Positions 13,680 to 48,548 of a DNA stretch of 48,700 bases are shown in pieces. Below the pieces are notes generated by a model. The model was not told the DNA's origin. It saw only the letters and a program-made list of their open reading frames with translations, and did no database searches. The translations under genes and the position numbers were made by a program. Source of the stretch: Bacillus sp. ISL-37 (GTDB lineage: Bacteria > Bacillota > Bacilli > Bacillales > Cytobacillaceae); the NCBI RefSeq assembly GCF_018613315.1, contig NZ_JAGGQL010000053.1, forward strand, positions 1 through 48,700, read 5' to 3'. Position 1 is the stretch's first letter. The number at the start of each line of letters is the position of its first letter.

Positions 13680-14585
13680 TTATAAAGTGCTTTTCGGCTT
13701 CTTGATTGATATTTTTTTTAATATGTTCCTTCCAGCTAACAACGCAAAATATAAAGGAATTGTGACAAGTAATATTACATAAAGGTCTCGTCCAGCAAGG
13801 TAAGTGGCAGAGTGAAGACCTTTTATAAGTAAGTGAGCAAACAGGTACGAGATAGGCAATAGAATCGTTTTTTCTTGTCCATTTCTTATTTTTTCGTTCT
13901 TACGGAATATGACCAATCCAATTCCACAAATAAGTAAAAATCCTATAGCAAACAATACATAGTAACTTAAAAGAAGCCGAGGTAACGTCATGACAGAACC
14001 ATCCGTTATTGGATCTCCATAAATTAAAGTATTTTCAATTCCATCGGTATTGTAATAGTAGATCGAAGCGACCGTTTCCCCATTCGGGTTTAAGACCGTA
14101 TTTTCCAGGTTGTTTTTGTTTATTTTCTGTTGCCAAATCGTTTCCCATGTAGTTATATCATAGACATAACCTGAATTGTCTGCTGCTGGATATTGATTTA
14201 CATTATATCCAGAGACTTCTTCACTAAAATTCAAAAGTACAGTTCCGTCATCCTTTTCAATAACTGAAACCGCATTTTCATTATAAGAGATGTATGCTGG
14301 GGTTGTCAGATAAGCGATTGTAACCACTGCAAAAACCAATGTTACCATGACTGAAAGAATAATCGTTTGCAGCTTTTTCTTTCGCAATGTATTTTGTATG
14401 TTTCTTAAGGGAGCTATATCGGTATCTACTGGCGGTTCTTCAAAAGTCCTCATTTCTTCAAGTCGTTTTTTACAGTTTTCACAAGAAGCTATATGTTCTT
14501 CAACTAGATCTCTAGTATCTTGACTTGCCATATCCTCGACATATAACGGCAGTATATCCCTAATCATATTACAGCTAATTTTCAT
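13680..14585 (-). CDS. Anti-sigma factor with N-terminal zinc finger (zf-HC2)
   Basis: A 301-residue membrane protein. The first about 40 residues form a putative zf-HC2/ZAS domain: CNMIRDILPLYVEDMASQ, then HIASCENCKKRL giving the H-x3-C-x2-C zinc motif. A membrane helix follows at about 75-95 (TIILSVMVTLVFAVVTIAYL), then an extracellular region of some 100 residues, and two or three more hydrophobic segments near the C-terminus. It should bind and inhibit the cognate ECF sigma factor and sense an envelope signal. The start overlaps the sigma gene by 4 bp. Confidence 0.85.
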   Translation of the reverse strand: MKISCNMIRDILPLYVEDMASQDTRDLVEEHIASCENCKKRLEEMRTFEEPPVDTDIAPLRNIQNTLRKKKLQTIILSVMVTLVFAVVTIAYLTTPAYISYNENAVSVIEKDDGTVLLNFSEEVSGYNVNQYPAADNSGYVYDITTWETIWQQKINKNNLENTVLNPNGETVASIYYYNTDGIENTLIYGDPITDGSVMTLPRLLLSYYVLFAIGFLLICGIGLVIFRKNEKIRNGQEKTILLPISYLFAHLLIKGLHSATYLAGRDLYVILLVTIPLYFALLAGRNILKKISIKKPKSTL

Positions 14586-15070
14586 CGATAATCCTCCGAT
14601 CGCGCTTTAATTTTTTCTCTAGCACGGTGATAAGTAACACAAGCCCAGTTTTCACTTTTTCCAAACAATTTGCCAATTTGCTTAAATGACAGTTCTCCAA
14701 ATGCACGGAGAGTAAAGACCTTTTTGTATGGCTCTTTCAAATTCTGGATAACTTCATGTACCTTCATAGACGCTTCTGAAATGGCTATTTCTTGTTCTAC
14801 ATTGTCTCCACTAGCTGATTCTGGAACCGACTCAAGATCCACCAAGCTTTTATTCTTACGCAAATAAGAGTAATAACTGTTTTTGGCAATTTGGCATAAC
14901 CAAACACGGATATCACTATTCCCTCTGAAACTGTCTAGCGATGTTAATGCCTTCATAAAAGTTTCCGAAGTGATATCTTCAGCGATATGCTTATCGCCAG
15001 ACAAACTATACACATATAAAAATACATCTTTAAAGTATGTATTATAAATATCCTCAAGCTGTGTCACCAT
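14582..15070 (-). CDS. ECF-type RNA polymerase sigma factor
   Basis: A 162-residue sigma-70 family protein with only regions 2 and 4. Region 2 includes YNTYFKDVFLYVYSLSGD and AEDITSETFMKALTSLDSFRG; region 4 includes LKEPYKKVFTLRAFGELSFKQIG with a helix-turn-helix toward residue 150. This is the ECF architecture. The downstream overlapping gene codes a zf-HC2 anti-sigma factor. AAGGAGGTGAG is 3-6 nt before the ATG. A plausible ECF-type promoter lies directly upstream (15090-15115), so the pair is probably autoregulated. The regulon and the signal are unknown. Confidence 0.9.
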   Translation of the reverse strand: MVTQLEDIYNTYFKDVFLYVYSLSGDKHIAEDITSETFMKALTSLDSFRGNSDIRVWLCQIAKNSYYSYLRKNKSLVDLESVPESASGDNVEQEIAISEASMKVHEVIQNLKEPYKKVFTLRAFGELSFKQIGKLFGKSENWACVTYHRAREKIKARSEDYR

Positions 15071-15341: not shown

Positions 15342-15692
15342 TTAGTTGGAATTAGAAGTGTTCTTTTTTACTCTTGAAATTACAAAATAAGCAACCAGAT
15401 ATATTAGGCACAAAAAGAGAAATACTATTAAAACTGAAAGTAAGAACTTATCTTGATGCCATACTGTTCCACAACATCTTATTCCATAAAAATAAGGTAA
15501 AGGCGGATCAATGTTAACTACTGTCAGCTCCACAAACCCTATTGGGAAACCTATAAACATAGGGAAACTCTCTTTTAACTCGTCATATGTTTTGATCATT
15601 TTTCCGTCAAAAAAAGCGGTAGAATAAACAAAAATGCACGATATAAGAAACATCAATGGTAGAACTACAAACTTTTTTAAAAAGGGTCGCAT
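15342..15692 (-). CDS. Hypothetical membrane protein
   Basis: A 116-residue protein not assigned to a family. There is one hydrophobic segment at about 8-28 (VVLPLMFLISCIFVYSTAFF) and a second at about 85-108 (LLSVLIVFLFLCLIYLVAYF). The roughly 55 residues between are probably extracellular and contain a Cys-Cys pair (YGIRCCGT). The tail is basic and polar. Base composition is AT-rich like its neighbours, suggesting acquired DNA. Translation signals are modest, with GGTGA about 10 nt before the ATG. Confidence 0.55.
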   Translation of the reverse strand: MRPFLKKFVVLPLMFLISCIFVYSTAFFDGKMIKTYDELKESFPMFIGFPIGFVELTVVNIDPPLPYFYGIRCCGTVWHQDKFLLSVLIVFLFLCLIYLVAYFVISRVKKNTSNSN

Positions 15693-15787
15693 TTATAAAT
15701 CACCTCAATAAAATCCCTAAAATATCTATGTATGATTATTGTGCAAAACTGCTGCGTTAGTTAGTTACTGCTAAGGAAATAAACACC

Positions 15788-16231
15788 TTAATCCCAAAAA
15801 TTAAAAATTACATCTCCTATTCTATGAGGTTTCCAATATTTTATTTGTGCCAGCTCAGTTCTATTCAAATTATTGTTTTGATCCTCAAATAGCGTTTTGT
15901 GTAGATCCTCAGCTTTCAATACATTGTAAAAACCGCTAAACAGTTCACCTAAAGATGGTTCATCAATAAAATTTATTTGACCAATTCTTACATCAGAAGC
16001 AAAAGCTAAAAGGGGATAATGTTCGTTAAGTAGGATATGAAATGACTTATCTCGTATATTGACTTTAATATCAAAAAAGTTTGTATATTCCCGAGGTTCC
16101 CAAACCTCTAGGATTTTCCCGCCATTGGTCTTAACATAGTTAAAACATAAAGACTTTAACTGTTTTCTATCCATCTTTGGAGGTTCATTGCTGCCTTCAT
16201 AAAAACCTGTAACACCATTAGGAAGTTCCAT
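15788..16231 (-). CDS. Hypothetical protein
   Basis: A soluble 147-residue protein beginning MELPNGVTGFYEGSNEPP and ending KPHRIGDVIFNFWD. No signal peptide or membrane segment. It has the composition of a compact alpha/beta domain with many aromatic residues. I do not recognise the family; it resembles small solitary immunity-like or house-cleaning proteins only in size, which is no evidence of function. It lies 68 bp from the structured 332-bp element. Confidence 0.6.
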   Translation of the reverse strand: MELPNGVTGFYEGSNEPPKMDRKQLKSLCFNYVKTNGGKILEVWEPREYTNFFDIKVNIRDKSFHILLNEHYPLLAFASDVRIGQINFIDEPSLGELFSGFYNVLKAEDLHKTLFEDQNNNLNRTELAQIKYWKPHRIGDVIFNFWD

Positions 16232-16299
16232 ATATGCCCCTTCAAGATTAAATTTTGTATCTCCTTGTTCAACTCCCTCAGTTTAATACGGTTTACTCA

Positions 16300-16631
16300 C
16301 GAATGCTCGCTTATTCGCAGGATTTCATCCTCCATGGATATATATTTCTAAATTAAAAGGAGTAGATTCTGGACAAATGGCTACGTGAAGACATAGTTAA
16401 ATAGAGGAGTAGGTTTATACTCCATATTCTACCATATGATGTACTTCTCCACGCCAGCCCTTGGAGGCTTTCCCTCCCATGTCTCAACGGGTCAATTGCC
16501 CTCTCATTCCTTCGTCATGCCTATCCAAGGGGTGGAGGCCAGTTATGCTAACCTGATGGGTCAGTGCCCTTTTGTTGAACAAACCTGGTACTCCGTACAT
16601 ATTTGAAATCCTGCGAATAAGCCAACACTCG
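16300..16631. other. Structured non-coding element with 28-bp terminal inverted repeats
   Basis: Terminal arms at 16300-16327 and 16604-16631 are inverted copies matching 25 of 28 positions, with the inner 18 perfect. Inside are a hairpin at 16406-16423 (GGAGTA/TACTCC), a long bulged stem pairing 16447-16465 with 16524-16537 (14 bp, 5-nt bulge), a hairpin at 16571-16583 (TTTGTT/AACAAA), and two copies of GGGTCA(AT or G)TGCCCT at 16489 and 16558. No gene. It directly follows the IS110-type transposase on that gene's coding strand. It may be the guide RNA end of the IS or an independent MITE-like element. Confidence 0.65.
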
Positions 16632-16683
16632 ATCTTTAAAAATATAAGGGGTAATGATTCTCTTCGAGAAAAAGTGAATTGAA

Positions 16684-17958
16684 CTACGCTGCCAACTCAG
16701 TTAACGGCTTGATCTTCTTGGCACAATATGCTTCGTTTTTTCGCGCTATCCCTACAAATATCCTAGCTAACTTCCCGATCAGCTTCATAATAGATTTCAT
16801 TTTTTTCATTTTCTTGTCCTTAACATTATTCGAGTGGAGGGCTTTAAATTCCGGGTTGTTCATTACCAGACTCATAGTAGCTAAATAGAGGAAACGTCTT
16901 ATCCTCGACCTTCCACGCTTTGAAATGATAATTTGCCCTTTCCACTTCCCTGAACTGGCTTCGGCTAGATGGAGTCCTGCATGGCGAAGCAAAGAGTTGC
17001 CGTGTGAAAAACCACTTAAATCTCCTGCTTCCCCTAAAATACCAGCTAACGAAATTTCACTAATTCCCTTAATCATAAGTAACTTATTCGCGAAAGGGAT
17101 TTTAGGTAGTTCATCCTTGATTGCCAGCTCAACTCTTTCAAGTTGTTGAATCGCAAGGTCATACTCTTCGAGTAATTGTTCAAGATGAAATTTATAAGCA
17201 TCTAATGCTTGTCTTGTACCAACTGATTTCCTGGCTACATTGAGGAGTAAATAGGCTTTCTTTAATCCAGGCTGTCGCTTCATGAGTGACTTCCACCCGG
17301 CGACGATCTCTTCAGGCTTCATGGAACCCAGTTCCATTGGTGATGGGAAAAGCCGAAGTGTTGCGATGGCCCCTTTAGCAGTGATGTCTTTAAATACTTG
17401 CCTAAGCTCGGGGAAGACAATATCCACCCAGCGATTCAATTGATTAATCGAGCTTACAAGTCTCTTAACAATGACATCCCGATTTGACATGAGTACTCTG
17501 AGCTTTTCAAACGACTCAGAAGTATTCCTTACAAAAGCGTAGTAACCGTTCTTCACCATATCGGCTATTACAAGAGCGTCTTTTTTATCACTCTTTGATT
17601 GGGTATTATCACGGTTTTCTTTATTTCTTTTCACCAAATGAGGGTTAACTGTCACTACCTCAATATCTTGTTTCATCAGCCATTTAGAAAGGTTAATCCA
17701 ATAATGACCGGTAGGTTCCATACCAACTATGGCAGCCTCAAGTTTATGTAATCTTTTAAGGTTATTAATCCAGATTAATAGGGACGAAAATCCCTCTTCG
17801 TTGTTTGGAAAAGTGATTGGATCTCCTACGACAATCCCACGGAAATTCACTGCTCTGGCTACGTGAAACTGTTGTGCAATATCCACACCAACCACAAGAT
17901 GTTTATCAGTAATTCTTTCAATTAGTTGATTTTGTTTGTCCTGCATTTTAAACTTCAT
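16684..17958 (-). mobile_element. IS110-family transposase (element ends unresolved)
   Basis: A 424-residue DEDD-type recombinase. The N-terminal RuvC-like domain starts GVDIAQQFHVARAVN (near residue 24), with GMEPTGHYW and SDKKDALVIADM supplying further acidic residues. The C-terminal Transposase_20 domain shows MIKGISEISLAGILGEAGD and LLRHAGLH with the likely catalytic Ser in EASSGKWKGQ. Members of this family are guided by an RNA coded in a non-coding end of the element. The non-coding stretch is long downstream (16232-16683) and short upstream, the layout reported for IS1111-type members. I could not identify terminal repeats or target sequence, so only the gene is delimited. The reading frame is intact. 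Confidence 0.92.
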
Positions 17959-18079
17959 AGTAAGGGTTCCTCCTAAGTTTGAGTTAGAGTCGTGTCTTAC
18001 TCATATCTTACTGAGGAGCCCTATTTTTTTCAAAGCTTAAAAATAGCGATCTACAGGAATGCTAAACTGCATCTATAGC

Positions 18080-18934
18080 TCAATAAGAAGTCGTTTCTTT
18101 TAAGTAAGTTGAAATGACTTGTCTAAACAACGACTTTTCTTCAAGGAAGGGGTAATGATTGCTTTCATTAAAAACAATTAGTTGTGATTTTGGTATTAAC
18201 TCATTCATTTCTACGGAGAAAGAAAGCGGGCATTGTACATCGTTTCGGCCACTCAATATTAAAGTATTAGTTGAGATTTTTTCTAACTCACGGGTTACAT
18301 CAAAGATCATTTCTTCCCTAATAAAAAAGTTCATTCTTGGAGCAGACATCTTTTTATGTATGCCTAAAGAAAAGTATTCATCAAACTTATCAGGATAAAA
18401 TAGAGATAGCTTCGTTCTTTCTTTTGAGAAGCGTTCCCTTTCACTAGGTGATAAATCAGAGCGTTTTAAAGTCTCAATAAGTTGCTGCATTCGGTCGAAC
18501 TTTGGGTGTTCAGGATGATAGATACATTTTGAGGATGAATTAGCATATTTCCTGGCAGCTGCCCCGACAATTATTAGTGAAGTAAGTGACATTGAAAAAT
18601 GAATACCATAAATGACTCCTATCATACCTCCTGTCGAGTGTCCGGCAAAGCTCCATTTGGAATAACCCAGGGCCTCTCGGATTGCTTCAAGATCGTATAC
18701 AGCATCAAACATACTCAACTCATGAGCCTCATTTGCCTTACTTGAATTTCCAGCTTGTTTTAAATTCACAAGGTAGACCATATTATTTTCTGTAAAAGTA
18801 TCTGCAAAGTAATCACCTGTATGATTAAACTCTGAATAATGATGAGTAACGCAAATCGGATTGCCATCTCCTTTTACAAAGACCTCAAAGTATCCGCGTG
18901 CGGTATTAATTATTTTCGTTTCCCAGTAGGACAT
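18080..18934 (-). CDS. Alpha/beta hydrolase
   Basis: A 284-residue soluble alpha/beta hydrolase. The nucleophile elbow is GHSTGG (Ser near residue 98), the acid the Asp of LSGRNDVQCP (about 236) and the base the His of NESNHYPFLEE (about 260). No signal peptide. It resembles the proline-iminopeptidase/epoxide-hydrolase-like group; the substrate is unknown. AAGGAGATTC lies upstream of the ATG. A single gene between the IS110 transposase and a divergent recombinase gene, in an AT-rich accessory interval. Confidence 0.83.
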   Translation of the reverse strand: MSYWETKIINTARGYFEVFVKGDGNPICVTHHYSEFNHTGDYFADTFTENNMVYLVNLKQAGNSSKANEAHELSMFDAVYDLEAIREALGYSKWSFAGHSTGGMIGVIYGIHFSMSLTSLIIVGAAARKYANSSSKCIYHPEHPKFDRMQQLIETLKRSDLSPSERERFSKERTKLSLFYPDKFDEYFSLGIHKKMSAPRMNFFIREEMIFDVTRELEKISTNTLILSGRNDVQCPLSFSVEMNELIPKSQLIVFNESNHYPFLEEKSLFRQVISTYLKETTSY

Positions 18935-19079
18935 TACTGAATCTCCTTACTTTCCTAGTTATCTTTACATTAATAGTCTTTAAATCAATCTTTTAATTGC
19001 TATTGATTACCATGAGTCTTAATTTCTATGTAACAGGCAATAATTCCTCTTAGTATCCAATTAAATGGGAGGGATTTGT

Positions 19080-19919
19080 TTGTTATTATCAGATGCGTGG
19101 AAATCCTATGAAGCTGATAAACGTATAGAAGGCTTTTCATCCTATACTTTAAAAGCATATGGAATCCAGGCAAAGCTACTCATTGTTTATTTTAATGATC
19201 CGAATATTGATAGTATCGACACAGAAGGGTTAAAGGAATATCTTGCTACTCAAGGTAAGGACTTAAAACCCTCTAGTATGGCTCACAGGATTCGATTTAT
19301 GAAGTCATTGTTTCGCTGGTGTCACGAGGAAGGGCATATATCCTTTAATCCAGCAGCAAAGATCAAGGAGCCTAAAGCGGGTAAGAGCATTCCAAAATTT
19401 CTATCGGAAAGGGAGATTGAACTTTTACGTGAAGCCTGTCTAAGTCCTATGGAAATGGCACTTTTTGAATTTATGTTTTCAACTGGCTGCAGAATCGGTG
19501 AAATCGCTGCACTTGATCGCAATTGCATTAATTGGTCTAACCGTTCTGCAATCGTCAGGGGAAAAGGTGATAAGGAACGTGAAGTGTATTTTAATATTCG
19601 CGCAGAATTATGGCTTAAGCGATACATTGATAGCCGCCAGGATAAAGATCCGGCCATTTTTGTAACAGAGAGACAGCCACACAGGATGAGTATCGCACAG
19701 ATAAGGTATTACATTAAGAAAATCTCAGCGCGTGCCGGAATTAATAAGGAAATTCACCCTCACCAACTCAGACACAGCTACGCCACTCATTTATTAAACA
19801 ATGGAGCACCAGTAGAAGTCATTCAAAGCCTTTTGGGTCACGAGAAAAGCGAAACCACTAGGATTTATGCTCAACTAAGCGGAAGGCTCAGACAGGAGTT
19901 TTATCAGAAATACTTTTAA
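19080..19919 (+). CDS. Tyrosine recombinase (XerC/XerD-like integrase)
   Basis: Site-specific recombinase of about 279 residues. The N-terminal SAM-like core-binding domain covers about 1-95. In the catalytic domain the visible residues are R in TGCRIGEIAAL, K in RGKGDKEREV, the HxxR pair in HPHQLRHSYATHL, H in LLGHEKSETT and the nucleophilic Tyr in RIYAQLS. All six look intact. An ATG at 19065 overlaps the GGGAGGG ribosome-binding site, so the TTG at 19080 is the more likely start. A solitary gene, not beside dif or prophage genes. It may have mobilised part of this accessory region, but I found no attachment repeats. Confidence 0.88.
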   Translation: MLLSDAWKSYEADKRIEGFSSYTLKAYGIQAKLLIVYFNDPNIDSIDTEGLKEYLATQGKDLKPSSMAHRIRFMKSLFRWCHEEGHISFNPAAKIKEPKAGKSIPKFLSEREIELLREACLSPMEMALFEFMFSTGCRIGEIAALDRNCINWSNRSAIVRGKGDKEREVYFNIRAELWLKRYIDSRQDKDPAIFVTERQPHRMSIAQIRYYIKKISARAGINKEIHPHQLRHSYATHLLNNGAPVEVIQSLLGHEKSETTRIYAQLSGRLRQEFYQKYF

Positions 19920-19922
19920 CAA

Positions 19923-19954
19923 AGAGAAGCAACGCAAAAATGCGTTGCTTCTCT
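19923..19954 (+). terminator. Terminator of the recombinase gene
   Basis: AGAGAAGCAACGCA, loop AAAA and TGCGTTGCTTCTCT form a perfect 14-bp stem starting 4 bp after the stop codon. The T tract is weak. Confidence 0.8.
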
Positions 19955-20003
19955 ACTCTTGCACCCGTTAGAGTTCAATATGAATTTATAATAATGGAGG
20001 CTA

Positions 20004-20468
20004 TCAGACAGACAAATCAATAAATTCCAGTTCCATTTCTGCCTCTGCTTTCGAACTATAAACGGTAATTTTATCATAGGGTTTCAATTTATCTTGCCAT
20101 GTTCTTATATTACTCAGAAAATCTTCCCCGTTTTCAGATAGGATCCAGCACTCTAACTGCCTATTGATATAACAAATTGGTGCGTCACTTTTCAAATCAC
20201 ATTGTTGACCAACGGTTCCGATAAACCCGCCTTTACTATCTCTTGCCATAATATCTACATATGGAACTGTATAAAATTCTAATTGTGGAATATCATCGTC
20301 AAAGATAAATTGAATATCATAATCGCTAGCAAATTTTTGATACTCTTCATTTTTATGATAAACACTCATAGGAAAAATTGTTGTACCTGCTGTTATAACC
20401 TTGGTATCTGTTAAATTTACATTTATGGCTCCATTTAATTTTGTTCTATCTAGATAAACTTTTCGCAT
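20004..20468 (-). CDS. Hypothetical protein
   Basis: A 154-residue soluble protein beginning MRKVYLDRTKLNGAIN, acidic overall, ending EAEMELEFIDLSV. No signal peptide, membrane segment or catalytic motif that I can name. The look is of a small mixed alpha/beta protein with repeated aromatic-rich strands. Not recognised. AGGTTGAG precedes the ATG. It shares low GC content with the neighbouring hypotheticals, suggesting acquired DNA. Confidence 0.6.
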   Translation of the reverse strand: MRKVYLDRTKLNGAINVNLTDTKVITAGTTIFPMSVYHKNEEYQKFASDYDIQFIFDDDIPQLEFYTVPYVDIMARDSKGGFIGTVGQQCDLKSDAPICYINRQLECWILSENGEDFLSNIRTWQDKLKPYDKITVYSSKAEAEMELEFIDLSV

Positions 20469-20575
20469 CTCAACCTCCGTTTAATCTTATTTGAAAGTAA
20501 ATGCTCATTACTTTTGTGATCTTATTGTGTATCCTGCCACTTGTGTTTAATAAGGAAATTCTACAAAAAAGGAGG

Positions 20576-20893
20576 CTAACCCTTTCTTAGATACACACGC
20601 TTTTTTCTAACATATAAATAAATAATCATTATAAATAAATTTGTTATAAAAACGAAGATTGTAAATACTGTCCCGCTCAAGATTAGTGTTTCTATATCCC
20701 ATCCTATATCAGCGTAAAAACTATAATACGTCCATCCTATAAGACAGCCAGAGTAAAGAATTAAGTTAACTAAACTAGTGAGAAATACTGCTGCCAATAA
20801 AGAATTGCTTTTCATATAGAAAAATAATGTAATCTTGTATTGGTAAATAAACGGGATAAGAAACAAAATCACCGTGTAAATTAATACCTCCAC
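20576..20893 (-). CDS. Hypothetical small membrane protein
   Basis: A 105-residue protein made mostly of hydrophobic segments: about 1-22 (MEVLIYTVILFLIPFIYQYK), about 30-55 (LLAAVFLTSLVNLILYSGCLIG) and about 70-98 (TLILSGTVFTIFVFITNLFIMII), ending in the basic tail RKKRVYLRKG, probably cytoplasmic. Three membrane helices are predicted by eye. Family not recognised. Ribosome-binding sequence AAGGAGTTG precedes the ATG. Confidence 0.6.
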   Translation of the reverse strand: MEVLIYTVILFLIPFIYQYKITLFFYMKSNSLLAAVFLTSLVNLILYSGCLIGWTYYSFYADIGWDIETLILSGTVFTIFVFITNLFIMIIYLYVRKKRVYLRKG

Positions 20894-46323: not shown

Positions 46324-46395
46324 TGACCCCTACGGGATTCGAACCCGTGTTACCGCCGTGAAAGGGCGGTGTCTTAACCGCTTGACCAAGGGGCC
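46324..46395 (-). tRNA. tRNA-Glu (anticodon TTC)
   Basis: Reverse strand folds with a 7-bp acceptor (GGCCCCT/AGGGGTC), loop CTTTCAC and discriminator A. CCA is not encoded. Last gene of the array. Confidence 0.97.
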
Positions 46396-46398
46396 TTA

Positions 46399-46489
46399 TG
46401 GCGGAGAAGGAGGGATTTGAACCCTCGCGCCGGTTACCCGACCTACACCCTTAGCAGGGGCGCCTCTTCAGCCTCTTGAGTACTTCCCC
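46399..46489 (-). tRNA. tRNA-Ser (anticodon GCT)
   Basis: Long variable arm, acceptor GGGGAAG/CTTCTCC, anticodon loop CTGCTAA, discriminator G. CCA encoded. Confidence 0.97.
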
Positions 46490-46496
46490 ATAAAAA

Positions 46497-46571
46497 TGGC
46501 TCCGCAGGTAGGATTCGAACCTACGACCGCTCGGTTAACAGCCGAGTGCTCTACCACTGAGCTACTGCGGA
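46497..46571 (-). tRNA. tRNA-Asn (anticodon GTT)
   Basis: Acceptor TCCGCAG/CTGCGGA, loop CTGTTAA, discriminator G. CCA encoded. Confidence 0.97.
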
Positions 46572-46584
46572 ATAATACAAAAAA

Positions 46585-46658
<74 letters not shown>

Positions 46659-46661
46659 TTA

Positions 46662-46735
46662 TGGAGCGGGTGAAGAGAATCGAACTCTCATCATCAGCTT
46701 GGAAGGCTGAGGTTTTACCACTAAACTACACCCGC
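46662..46735 (-). tRNA. tRNA-Gly (anticodon TCC)
   Basis: Acceptor GCGGGTG/CACCCGC, loop CTTCCAA, discriminator T. CCA encoded. Confidence 0.97.
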
Positions 46736-46741
46736 AAAAAA

Positions 46742-46818
46742 TGGGGCGACTGATGGGAATCGAACCCACGAATGCCTGAACCACAATCAGGTGCGTTAAC
46801 CACTTCGCCACAATCGCC
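46742..46818 (-). tRNA. tRNA-His (anticodon GTG)
   Basis: An extra 5' G pairs with C73, the histidine identity element, and is encoded in the DNA. Loop TTGTGGT. CCA encoded. Confidence 0.97.
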
Positions 46819-46854
46819 ATATCTATAATGAATATTAATTGAAATTAAATAAGG

Positions 46855-46927
46855 TGGCTCAGGACGGAATCGAACCGCCGACACAAGGATTTTCAGTCCT
46901 TTGCTCTACCGACTGAGCTACTGAGCC
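46855..46927 (-). tRNA. tRNA-Phe (anticodon GAA)
   Basis: Acceptor GGCTCAG/CTGAGCC, loop CTGAAAA, discriminator A. The 3' flank is CCT, so CCA is not encoded. Confidence 0.97.
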
Positions 46928-46932
46928 ACAAA

Positions 46933-47008
46933 TGGCGGTCCCGACCGGGATCGAACCGGCGATCTCCTGCGTGACAGGCAGGCATGTTAACCGCTACACC
47001 ACGGGACC
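46933..47008 (-). tRNA. tRNA-Asp (anticodon GTC)
   Basis: Acceptor GGTCCCG/CGGGACC, loop CTGTCAC, discriminator G. CCA encoded. Confidence 0.97.
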
Positions 47009-47049
47009 AAATTCTTTTCAAGGAATTAACTTGAAAAGAACATTATGAA

Positions 47050-47123
<74 letters not shown>

Positions 47124-47149
47124 ACGATAAAAACTGTTTCAAAAAAATA

Positions 47150-47242
47150 TGGAGGAGGTAGAGGGATTCGAACCCCCGCGCGGTGTTACCCGCCTGTCGG
47201 TTTTCAAGACCGATCCCTTCAGCCAGACTTGGGTATACCTCC
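47150..47242 (-). tRNA. tRNA-Ser (anticodon TGA)
   Basis: Long variable arm, acceptor GGAGGTA/TACCTCC, loop CTTGAAA, discriminator T. CCA encoded. Confidence 0.97.
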
Positions 47243-47259
47243 GTGTTAAAAATAAGCAA

Positions 47260-47336
47260 TGGTGGACCTTGTAGGACTCGAACCTACGACCGGACGGTTA
47301 TGAGCCGTCTGCTCTAACCAGCTGAGCTAAAGGTCC
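47260..47336 (-). tRNA. tRNA-Ile2 (CAT, expected lysidine-modified)
   Basis: The anticodon reads CAT, but the body (GGACCTTTAGCTC... and AAGGTCC acceptor) matches the B. subtilis minor tRNA-Ile read through lysidine at position 34, and its place between Met and Ser(TGA) agrees with trnB. Automatic tools may call it Met. CCA encoded. Confidence 0.87.
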
Positions 47337-47375
47337 AGGATATCCTAGATTGAATAGGTTCAACCAGATTGAAAT

Positions 47376-47452
47376 TGGTAGCGGCGGAGGGGATCGAACC
47401 CCCGACCTTACGGGTATGAACCGTACGCTCTAGCCAGCTGAGCTACACCGCC
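47376..47452 (-). tRNA. Elongator tRNA-Met (anticodon CAT)
   Basis: Starts GGCGGTGTAGCTC as the B. subtilis elongator Met tRNA; acceptor closes with wobble pairs; discriminator A. CCA encoded. Confidence 0.93.
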
Positions 47453-47474
47453 AAATTATTATTTAAAGTGAATA

Positions 47475-47550
47475 TGGTGGAGCCTAGCGGGATCGAACCG
47501 CTGACCTCCTGCGTGCAAGGCAGGCGCTCTCCCAGCTGAGCTAAGGCCCC
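47475..47550 (-). tRNA. tRNA-Ala (anticodon TGC)
   Basis: Acceptor GGGGCCT/AGGCTCC, loop CTTGCAC, discriminator A. CCA encoded. Confidence 0.97.
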
Positions 47551-47567
47551 ATATAAAATAAGTAGCA

Positions 47568-47644
47568 TGGTCGGGAAGACAGGATTCGAACCTGCGACCC
47601 CTTGGTCCCAAACCAAGTGCTCTACCAAGCTGAGCTACTCCCCG
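47568..47644 (-). tRNA. tRNA-Pro (anticodon TGG)
   Basis: Acceptor CGGGGAG/CTTCCCG, loop TTTGGGA, discriminator A. CCA encoded. Confidence 0.97.
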
Positions 47645-47661
47645 ATAAAGAGTAAATATAA

Positions 47662-47738
<77 letters not shown>

Positions 47739-47761
47739 AAATTTAATAATTTCAGCTAACT

Positions 47762-47850
47762 TGGTGCCGAGGACCGGAATCGAACCGGTACGGTAGTCAC
47801 CTACCGCAGGATTTTAAGTCCTGTGCGTCTGCCAGTTCCGCCACCCCGGC
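47762..47850 (-). tRNA. tRNA-Leu (anticodon TAA)
   Basis: Long variable arm, acceptor GCCGGGG/CCTCGGC, loop CTTAAAA, discriminator A. CCA encoded. Confidence 0.97.
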
Positions 47851-47857
47851 TAAGAAA

Positions 47858-47932
47858 TGGAGCGGAAGACGGGATTCGAACCCGCGACCCCAACCTTGGC
47901 AAGGTTGTATTCTACCACTGAACTACTTCCGC
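47858..47932 (-). tRNA. tRNA-Gly (anticodon GCC)
   Basis: Acceptor GCGGAAG/CTTCCGC, loop TTGCCAA, discriminator T. CCA encoded. Confidence 0.97.
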
Positions 47933-47940
47933 ATTTATGG

Positions 47941-47968
47941 AAAGTTTTTTTGCTTGCGCAAAAAACTT
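47941..47968. other. tRNA-spacer hairpin between Leu(TAG) and Gly(GCC)
   Basis: AAAG-T7-GC and GC-A6-CTTT pair with one bulged base around a short loop. It fills the whole spacer and touches the CCA of the Leu gene. Confidence 0.6.
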
Positions 47969-48053
47969 TGGTGCGGGTGAAGGGAGTCGAACCCCCACGC
48001 CTTGCGGCGCCAGATCCTAAGTCTGGTGCGTCTGCCAATTCCGCCACACCCGC
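47969..48053 (-). tRNA. tRNA-Leu (anticodon TAG)
   Basis: Long variable arm, acceptor GCGGGTG/CACCCGC, loop CTTAGGA, discriminator A. CCA encoded. Confidence 0.97.
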
Positions 48054-48070
48054 ATATAAGATAATAAGTT

Positions 48071-48116
48071 TTCGCTGTCGCGAAGATAAGTAAGTTTATT
48101 TTCGCTGGCGCGAAAA
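48071..48116. other. Two mini-hairpins in the Lys/Leu spacer
   Basis: TTCGC-TGTC-GCGAA at 48071-48084 and TTTTCGC-TGGC-GCGAAAA at 48099-48116, both perfect, in the spacer between tRNA-Leu(TAG) and tRNA-Lys. Confidence 0.75.
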
Positions 48117-48121
48117 AAACT

Positions 48122-48197
48122 TGGTGAGCCATGAAGGACTCGAACCTTCGACCCTCTGATTAAAAGTCAGATGCTCTACCGACTGAGCTAATGGCTC
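48122..48197 (-). tRNA. tRNA-Lys (anticodon TTT)
   Basis: Acceptor GAGCCAT/ATGGCTC, loop CTTTTAA, discriminator A. CCA encoded. Confidence 0.97.
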
Positions 48198-48204
48198 GTA
48201 CAAG

Positions 48205-48280
<76 letters not shown>

Positions 48281-48297
48281 ATTTGTGGAAGATTATT

Positions 48298-48340
48298 TTC
48301 ACTAGCGTGAAGTTAAGGGTATTTTTTCACTTTCGTAAAA
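48298..48340. other. Mini-hairpins in the Val/Thr spacer
   Basis: TTCAC-TAGC-GTGAA at 48298-48311 is perfect; a second, imperfect TTTTTTCAC-TTTC-GT-AAAAAA follows near 48322-48342. Same design as the spacer hairpins at 48071-48116. Confidence 0.7.
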
Positions 48341-48346
48341 AAAACT

Positions 48347-48422
48347 TGGTGGAGGATGACGGGATCGAACCGCCGACCCTCTGCTTGTAAGGCAGATGCT
48401 CTCCCAGCTGAGCTAATCCTCC
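48347..48422 (-). tRNA. tRNA-Val (anticodon TAC)
   Basis: Acceptor GGAGGAT/ATCCTCC, loop CTTACAA, discriminator A. CCA encoded. First tRNA after 5S rRNA. Confidence 0.97.
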
Positions 48423-48432
48423 ATTTGAAACT

Positions 48433-48548
<116 letters not shown>

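Follow-up and report, generated by a model that had tools for sequence, protein, structure and literature searches.

A predicted bridge-type guide RNA within an IS110-family element of Bacillus sp. ISL-37, and a possible integron-like cassette array as its target

In a 48,700-nucleotide stretch of the Bacillus sp. ISL-37 genome (contig NZ_JAGGQL010000053.1; the whole stretch is hereafter called the window), a strongly structured non-coding sequence of 332 bp lies next to an IS110-family transposase gene. This raises the question of whether the structure belongs to the insertion sequence (IS) and specifies a guide RNA, as an earlier note on the sequence proposed, or whether it is an unrelated mobile or regulatory element. 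Element ends, an AG core, a conserved fold and target guides that track the flanking DNA can all be read from the sequence itself, and on these grounds the stretch is best explained as encoding, on the minus strand, a bridge-type guide RNA of its own IS110-family element (probability about 0.9). The features concerned are collected in Table 1.

Table 1. Positions of the IS, its predicted RNA and the surrounding genes and sites (window coordinates unless a fetched region is named)
Feature	Position	Strand	Basis or remark
Diverged array site after 147-aa ORF	15735..15762	minus	score -3.2
Cassette-like ORF, 147 aa	15788..16231	minus	no family match
Target site, right half	16261..16272	minus	same comparison as left half
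IS110-family insertion sequence	16273..18063	minus	1,791 bp from left AG core to right AG core; blastn alignment
IS right end CTGAGGGAG	16273..16281	minus	copy alignment and location in sequence
3' non-coding region, 411 nt	16273..16683	minus	ORF end and IS end
Predicted bridge-type guide RNA (332-bp element)	16300..16631	minus	conserved fold, 34 non-redundant of 68 copies
P1 closing helix, 3' arm	16300..16327	minus	8 of 26 P1 pairs with both bases changed in at least one copy
Long stem, 3' side	16447..16464	minus	pairs with 16525-16537; 5-nt bulge, 13 pairs
Candidate left donor guide TGAGACATGGGAG, for IS right end CTGAGGGAG	16474..16486	minus	analogy and inspection by eye
Donor-loop hairpin, motif copy 2 (GGGCAATTGACCC)	16489..16501	minus	conserved fold
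Right donor guide AGGAATG	16505..16511	minus	complementary to IS left end CATTCCT
Target-loop stem, 3' side	16534..16542	minus	one pair A-U to G-C in 15 of 34 copies
Left target guide CAGGTTAG	16548..16555	minus	matches left flank plus AG core
Hairpin between target guides, motif copy 1 (GGGCACTGACCC)	16558..16569	minus	conserved fold
Right target guide TTGTTCAAC	16574..16582	minus	complementary to right flank
Target-loop stem, 5' side	16585..16594	minus	conserved fold
P1 closing helix, 5' arm	16604..16631	minus	complementarity and conserved fold
Transposase/recombinase gene, 424 aa	16684..17958	minus	Pfam, NCBIfam and structure-chain match
IS left end AGCATTCCTGTAG	18051..18063	minus	copy alignment and location in sequence
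Target site, left half	18062..18090	minus	IS-free sites after the same gene in L155-L158
Alpha/beta hydrolase gene, first cassette-like gene, next to recombinase	18080..18934	minus	domain match
XerA/XerD-like tyrosine recombinase	19065..19919	plus	profile matches; divergent from the small genes
Diverged array site	20520..20547	minus	score -1.7
Copies of a cassette of about 460 bp	L198:18744-19204, L203:16058-16530, L203:7240-7707, L202:11535-12046		

The extent of the element was read from a blastn alignment of its copies. Of 92 long copies (those aligned over more than 1,500 columns), 85 had both ends within the same 35-base ranges, the left end in 18060-18092 and the right end in 16245-16275, and the conserved ends seen in the flanks were AG-CATTCCTGTAG and CTGAGGG-AG. 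Because the aligned copies end beyond it, the 332-bp stretch lies inside the IS, 27 bases short of the right end, and occupies most of the 3' non-coding region. The 28-bp repeats had been put forward as possible element ends; the copies instead end at 16273 and 18063.

Relatives of the IS occur in 115 of 193 genomes of the family, the source genome counted (DNA search, E up to 0.001), and the named carriers are mostly Bacillaceae and Paenibacillaceae. In a protein search, the best 80 of 219 loci were kept. After 21 exact duplicates and three copies without a recognisable end had been dropped, 68 distinct elements were left, 56 of them with a transposase gene that was uninterrupted by our own criterion. 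The source genome holds one full copy, that of the window, and two partial pieces. The latter lie side by side at 4683-4882 of contig C44 (L002, L003), are 78-79% identical and probably represent the decayed remnant of a related IS.

A covariance model built from the two RNA loops (R1) matched in 99 of the 193 genomes and at one place in the source genome. Transposase sequence, sometimes in pieces, was found beside all 20 strong matches sampled, and among 20 weaker matches a transposase lay in the expected direction in 14. Of the other six, one stood at a contig end (L142), three were partial RNAs only (L145, L151, L152), one was scrambled, with a short transposase piece on the other strand (L153), and one had the last codons of a transposase-like frame upstream (L148). 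An alternative is that the 28-bp repeats delimit an independent, MITE-like element that stands beside the IS by chance. It can draw on the long, near-perfect repeats and on the five weaker matches without a detected transposase in the fetched stretch (L153, with its opposite-strand piece, being the sixth), but it has almost no chance of being correct, given that copies extend beyond the repeats by 27 bp and share one IS end there, that transposase accompanies the strong matches sampled and most weaker ones, and that each exception is cut, partial, scrambled or preceded by the end of a transposase-like frame.

The neighbouring protein places the element in the IS110/IS1111 family. It matches Pfam PF01548 (E 1.4e-32) and PF02371 (E 4.9e-17), scores 201.8 bits against NCBIfam NF033542 (cut-off 140) and matches the IS621 chain 8wt6 with an E of 1e-9. 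The DEDD N-terminal domain and the PF02371 C-terminal domain expected of this family are thus both present, and in silico the element also has a long non-coding region of the kind seen in the family, whose predicted RNA carries guides for both strands of the target. The only element names among the plasmid matches listed (60 of 2,325) were ISEc21, ISEc20 and ISSfl4, at about 22-26% identity, and no named IS1111 member was found among these 60 records. The stop codon of the gene (16684-16686) does adjoin the structure, as had been observed, at a distance of 52 bases rather than 53.

That the 332-bp structure is real is borne out by its pairing and its folding energy. The arms of the closing helix (P1), 28 nt long and 276 nt apart, are complementary at 25 positions (89%), as counted before, with an inner perfect stretch of 19 rather than 18. 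Two of the three mismatches become G-U pairs in a minus-strand RNA and are A-C and C-A on the plus strand. Compared with shuffled sequences, the minus-strand fold of 16290-16683 gave a z of -5.8 (none of 100 shuffles as good), against -3.35 (one of 100) for the plus strand. The conserved structure, consisting of P1, the target-loop stem and the hairpins, was tested in 34 copies of less than 90% identity picked from the 68; 96.0% of cells were paired, compared with 92.7% in shuffled and at most 49.2% in slid versions. In 11 of 45 pairs, both bases had changed in at least one copy, and the covariation score was reached by none of 500 shuffles. Frequent U-G pairs on the minus strand, in 32 and 20 of the 34 copies at two P1 pairs, favour an RNA of that strand.

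Within P1, each loop is laid out as stem, right guide, hairpin (GGGCA..TGACCC) and left guide. The duplicated motif described earlier is present in both loops, but its two copies are hairpins between the guides and not the guide pair itself; since they part the right guide from the left, both loops are alike in build and follow the IS1111 guide order. Of the other internal features reported, the long stem spans 16447-16537 with its 5-nt bulge, although 13 pairs were counted instead of 14, and it shares two bases with a hairpin. The palindrome at 16571-16583 exists, but what was described as a hairpin covers the right target guide, which is palindromic because its target is. A search of 16250-16700 with Rfam returned no family match and one chance match (Six3os1_2, E 0.76), and at the gathering score the whole window yielded nothing but 21 tRNAs and a 5S rRNA, the genes for which form a cluster on the minus strand at 46324-48548.

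The assignment of the target guides comes from a scan in which 8-base windows of the aligned 3' non-coding regions, at columns filled in most copies, were compared with each copy's own flank, in the 65 of 68 distinct copies whose flanks could be used. For the complement of the right flank, the peak was at 16575-16582 (TTGTTCAA), with 6.92 of 8 letters (5.22 with permuted flanks, z 13; next window 4.63). The left flank plus AG peaked at 16548-16555, with 6.78 of 8 (permuted 5.29, z 9.8; next window 4.52). For either guide none of 200 permutations was as high; these permutations ignore relatedness, for which the highest z of two wrong-strand control scans, 4.3, gives a gauge of what relatedness alone contributes. 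Other windows in the correct-strand scans reached z 6.0 (GAGTACCA, a neighbouring window with just 2.68 of 8) and z 4.1. As examples of the correspondence, RNA ACTTAAAC occurs with the flank complement ACTTAAA, RNA GATTAATC with GATTAAT and RNA CTTGTCC with CTTGTC, while three copies match poorly at the right guide (L060, L072 and L094, 4 of 8 each).

When the complement of the left IS end was scanned for, the top-scoring window (6.66 of 8; next window 5.2) contained the putative right donor guide. Permuted ends score like the real ones here (6.64) and no covariation is seen, because this donor guide hardly varies. No distinct peak for a left donor guide appeared in the column scan of the 65 copies, and the candidate given in Table 1 was placed by analogy.

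Across copies, the target guides appear to have been rewritten repeatedly. Guides and flanks were sorted separately into classes drawn by eye on the same data, with flank ties going to the second class, and on this sorting guide class equals target class in 55 of 66 copies (23 + 32), while six disagree and five have guides in neither class. On a tree of 55 transposases, the class changes required by well-supported branches number at least seven for one label and at least nine for the other. When the joined IS targets were scored as array sites with the model described below, 42 of 65 exceeded all 325 shuffles, 26 in one orientation and 16 in the other, and 23 did not. Related copies seem to be programmed to either arm of a palindromic site.

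A sister group of IS, found among the weaker RNA-model matches, has a transposase of about 40% amino acid identity with the same ends and RNA motif. Its insertion point in the same target lies 5 bp further left, with a corresponding shift of its guides; an example of the offset is GGGGCAG / TTTAGTTCAATAAGG (L137, sister group) compared with GGGGCAGTTTAG / TTGAACAAGG (L033). In 12 sister copies read, 11 with a visible left end, guides with C at the seventh letter from the cut had a flank with C in five of six, those with G had a flank with G in five of five, and guide and flank agreed fully over the last seven letters in six of 11. The sister group (L134-L147) comprises two subtypes with the right ends ATAGAGGGAG and ATTGAGGGAG, which differ in donor-loop letters, a possible case of donor covariation.

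These observations bear on a further alternative, namely that the structure is a 3' untranslated region or terminator through which the transposase is regulated, with no guide function. Such an element would have a strong fold at the 3' end of the gene, as is found; it predicts neither two RNA windows that track the flanking DNA of each copy nor the shifted guides of the sister group, and we regard it as very improbable. The proposal that the stretch specifies a guide RNA of the IS110 type, with one loop for the target and one for the donor, is in turn supported by the guide scan, the conserved fold and the sister-group guides together.

By comparison with IS621, ISEc11 and their kin, the transposase would bind this RNA, and the excised circle would be held by the donor loop, with AGGAATG on the left IS end and, on the right end, a left guide near GGGAG. 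Pairing of the target loop with one arm of the palindromic target site would follow, strand exchange would take place at the AG core, and the landing site would be a point where two cassettes of an integron-like array adjoin. Collectively, the copies amount to an extensive natural record of how the guides of a programmable recombinase have been rewritten, and because the flanks report the target each time, guide-target rules could be read without experiment. The lineage also offers new recombinases from Gram-positive hosts.

The nature of the target site is the second question raised by this locus. The target-consensus pattern, with up to three mismatches, matched in 146 of the 193 family genomes, with a single match in the source genome, and its reversed control had no match among the matches listed. 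The matches cluster on one strand (40 versus 1 in G019) and number up to 86 (in G157). With the best-known target consensus, again at up to three mismatches, the source genome gave 7 and 7 matches versus 3 and 2 for the control, so that conservation of this consensus there is poor. A site model was then built from ten array regions of other genera and seeded with 99 matches, and the window target site, with its halves joined, scored 30.1 on this model (maximum of 325 shuffles, -16.0). The model identified 132 sites in 15 of 20 fetched regions, namely those with at least two sites, and within each of the 15 all sites lay on one strand. None or one site was found in the other five (L195, L196, L197, L211 and L213), three of which are from the source genome. 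In the window itself the model found only two weak, diverged sites, both on the same strand as the IS-bearing site; no score above -12.1 was obtained in 20 shuffles of a 20-kb stretch.

Within the window, the recombinase gene points to the right and the hydrolase gene and small ORFs to the left, and the IS sits in the site after the hydrolase gene. By coordinates, the hydrolase gene also stands beside the recombinase in five relatives (G074, G080, G082, G087 and G088). Among nine relatives examined after this gene, four have a site-like sequence without the IS (L155-L158), three have more diverged sequences (L160, L161 and L163) and two relatives of the genus (L159 and L162) carry the left end of a sister IS, 5 bp from the window insertion point. 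In L155-L158, similarity to the joined flanks of the window ends 10 to 19 bases beyond the insertion point. On the minus strand, the window also contains overlapping genes for a sigma-70-type factor and a zinc-finger, anti-sigma-like protein (13680-15070).

There are 102 inter-site intervals shorter than 2.5 kb, with a median of 645 bp. ORFs of 60 codons or more are present in 88 of them, 96 ORFs having the orientation of the sites and 23 the reverse. Gene ends do not as a rule fall in the site, in that 20% of stop codons lie from 40 bases inside to 60 before the core and the median is 80 before. Where array regions, within one genome or between genomes, have a homologous piece in common, 23 of the 52 ends of such pieces lie no more than 60 bp from a site, against 8% for random placement, and both ends are near sites in five of 26 pieces. 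A cassette of about 460 bp recurs in array regions of three genomes (G019, G022 and G017; two copies in G022), and its ends coincide with sites or lie close to them. Integron-like arrays, in which short genes on one strand accompany palindromic direct repeats and a XerA-like recombinase is divergent, can be seen at 15342-20893 of the window and, for example, in L198, L205 and L206.

A recombinase 83-94% identical to that of the window occurs in nine regions, six of them chosen for the recombinase and two showing one site only, and it is on the opposite strand to the sites in all nine. It scores 206.2 against the XerA model (cut-off 220) and lies below the cut-off of every model listed; with 89.5 bits against the integron integrase model TIGR02249 (cut-off 265), it does not qualify as an IntI. 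Same-direction genes separated by direct repeats, the arrangement expected of an integron, are present. No attI-like site was seen by eye between the recombinase and the hydrolase gene, and some sites, by eye, fit the attC box GTTRRRY while many do not.

It may be asked whether the target is instead an ordinary dispersed transcription terminator or REP-like palindrome and not a recombination site of a cassette array. Such elements would likewise be palindromic, intergenic and located after genes, the source genome has few, scattered sites (7 in five stretches fetched), and REP sequences are targeted by IS621 and ISPa11 (PMC11208160, PMC11187229). We nevertheless consider this explanation unlikely. 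It does not account for 132 sites in 15 regions with one strand per region, for a recombinase on the opposite strand in nine of nine (with the selection described above), for homologous pieces ending near a site well above the random 8%, or for homology next to the shared hydrolase gene that ends in the site in four relatives. On balance, there is somewhat better reason to accept than to doubt that Bacillaceae possess a hitherto unrecognised integron-like cassette system with a XerA-like recombinase and short palindromic sites, exploited by a bridge-RNA lineage whose guides have been redirected repeatedly, to one or the other arm of the site or to a position 5 bp away, and whose RNA resembles a duplicated single-guide module. 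If confirmed, the array would represent integron-like gene capture in a group with hardly any known integrons (PMC9024848), and it could account for many of the strain-specific small genes whose function is unknown.

Compared with known systems, the predicted RNA shares with the IS621 bridge RNA two similar loops of stem, guide, hairpin and guide (PMC11208160, PMC11208158), a predicted specificity for both target and donor, and a palindromic repeat as target. It differs in being downstream of the gene, where that of IS621 is upstream; in having the right guide first, whereas IS621 has stem, left guide, hairpin and right guide (PMC11208158); in its size, about 330 nt including a 28-bp closing helix where the IS621 RNA has 177 nt; and in its transposase of 424 aa, against 328 (chain 8wt6). 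Neither the upstream non-coding region nor the reverse guide order of the IS110 group (IS621, ISEc21) is found here. A downstream non-coding region is shared with the seekRNA-encoding IS1111 members ISEc11, ISPa11, ISKpn4 and ISPst6, and as in their seekRNAs the top-strand complement precedes, on its 5' side, the bottom-strand complement (PMC11187229). The earlier suggestion of an IS1111-type element therefore holds for the downstream RNA, but not for the subterminal inverted repeats or the transposase length. No repeats of the IS1111 type (7-17 bp, usually 11-13) were found between the first and last 60 bp of the IS, the best match being 7 bp, 47 bp inside the left end and equalled by 42 of 200 shuffles, and the transposase is longer than the 330-350 aa of IS1111 members (PMC11187229). 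The peak seekRNAs of IS1111 were reported at 82-96 nt (PMC11187229), compared with about 330 nt predicted here. Some IS110-type elements with a downstream non-coding region are mentioned in PMC11187229, where the passages on them describe no RNA. Judged from its sequence, the element thus appears to mix features: a downstream RNA and IS1111 guide order with an IS110-like length and no subterminal repeats.

As to the target, IS1111 members that insert into the attC sites of integrons are already known (PMC11187229; Post and Hall 2009 as cited in PMC11208160), ISKpn4 and ISPst6 among them (PMC11187229); unlike those attC targets, the present sites belong to a XerA-like and not an IntI system. 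The arrays resemble integrons (IntI/attC; PMC9024848, PMC8618304) in their short head-to-tail genes of one direction, palindromic junction sites, divergent tyrosine recombinase and cassette content that differs at site boundaries. They differ in having no IntI and in a site core of about 35 bp. In Xer/pdif modules of plasmids, genes are flanked by Xer-type sites; unlike these modules, the arrays have many sites in direct order and a dedicated recombinase. With IntegronFinder 2.0, one complete integron of Firmicutes (Limnochorda pilosa) and a few integrase-less clusters were reported (PMC9024848, PMC8618304), and in the open-licence PubMed Central literature we found no report of the Bacillaceae arrays or of the present RNA. 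Bridge RNAs have been predicted by models in 85.7% of the IS110s and 93.0% of the IS1111s of ISfinder (PMC11208160). The bridge RNA of an IS110-family element is therefore of a known kind, from which its mixed features set the present one apart. An integron-like row of small genes beside a recombinase gene is a set-up hardly known in Bacillus-type bacteria.
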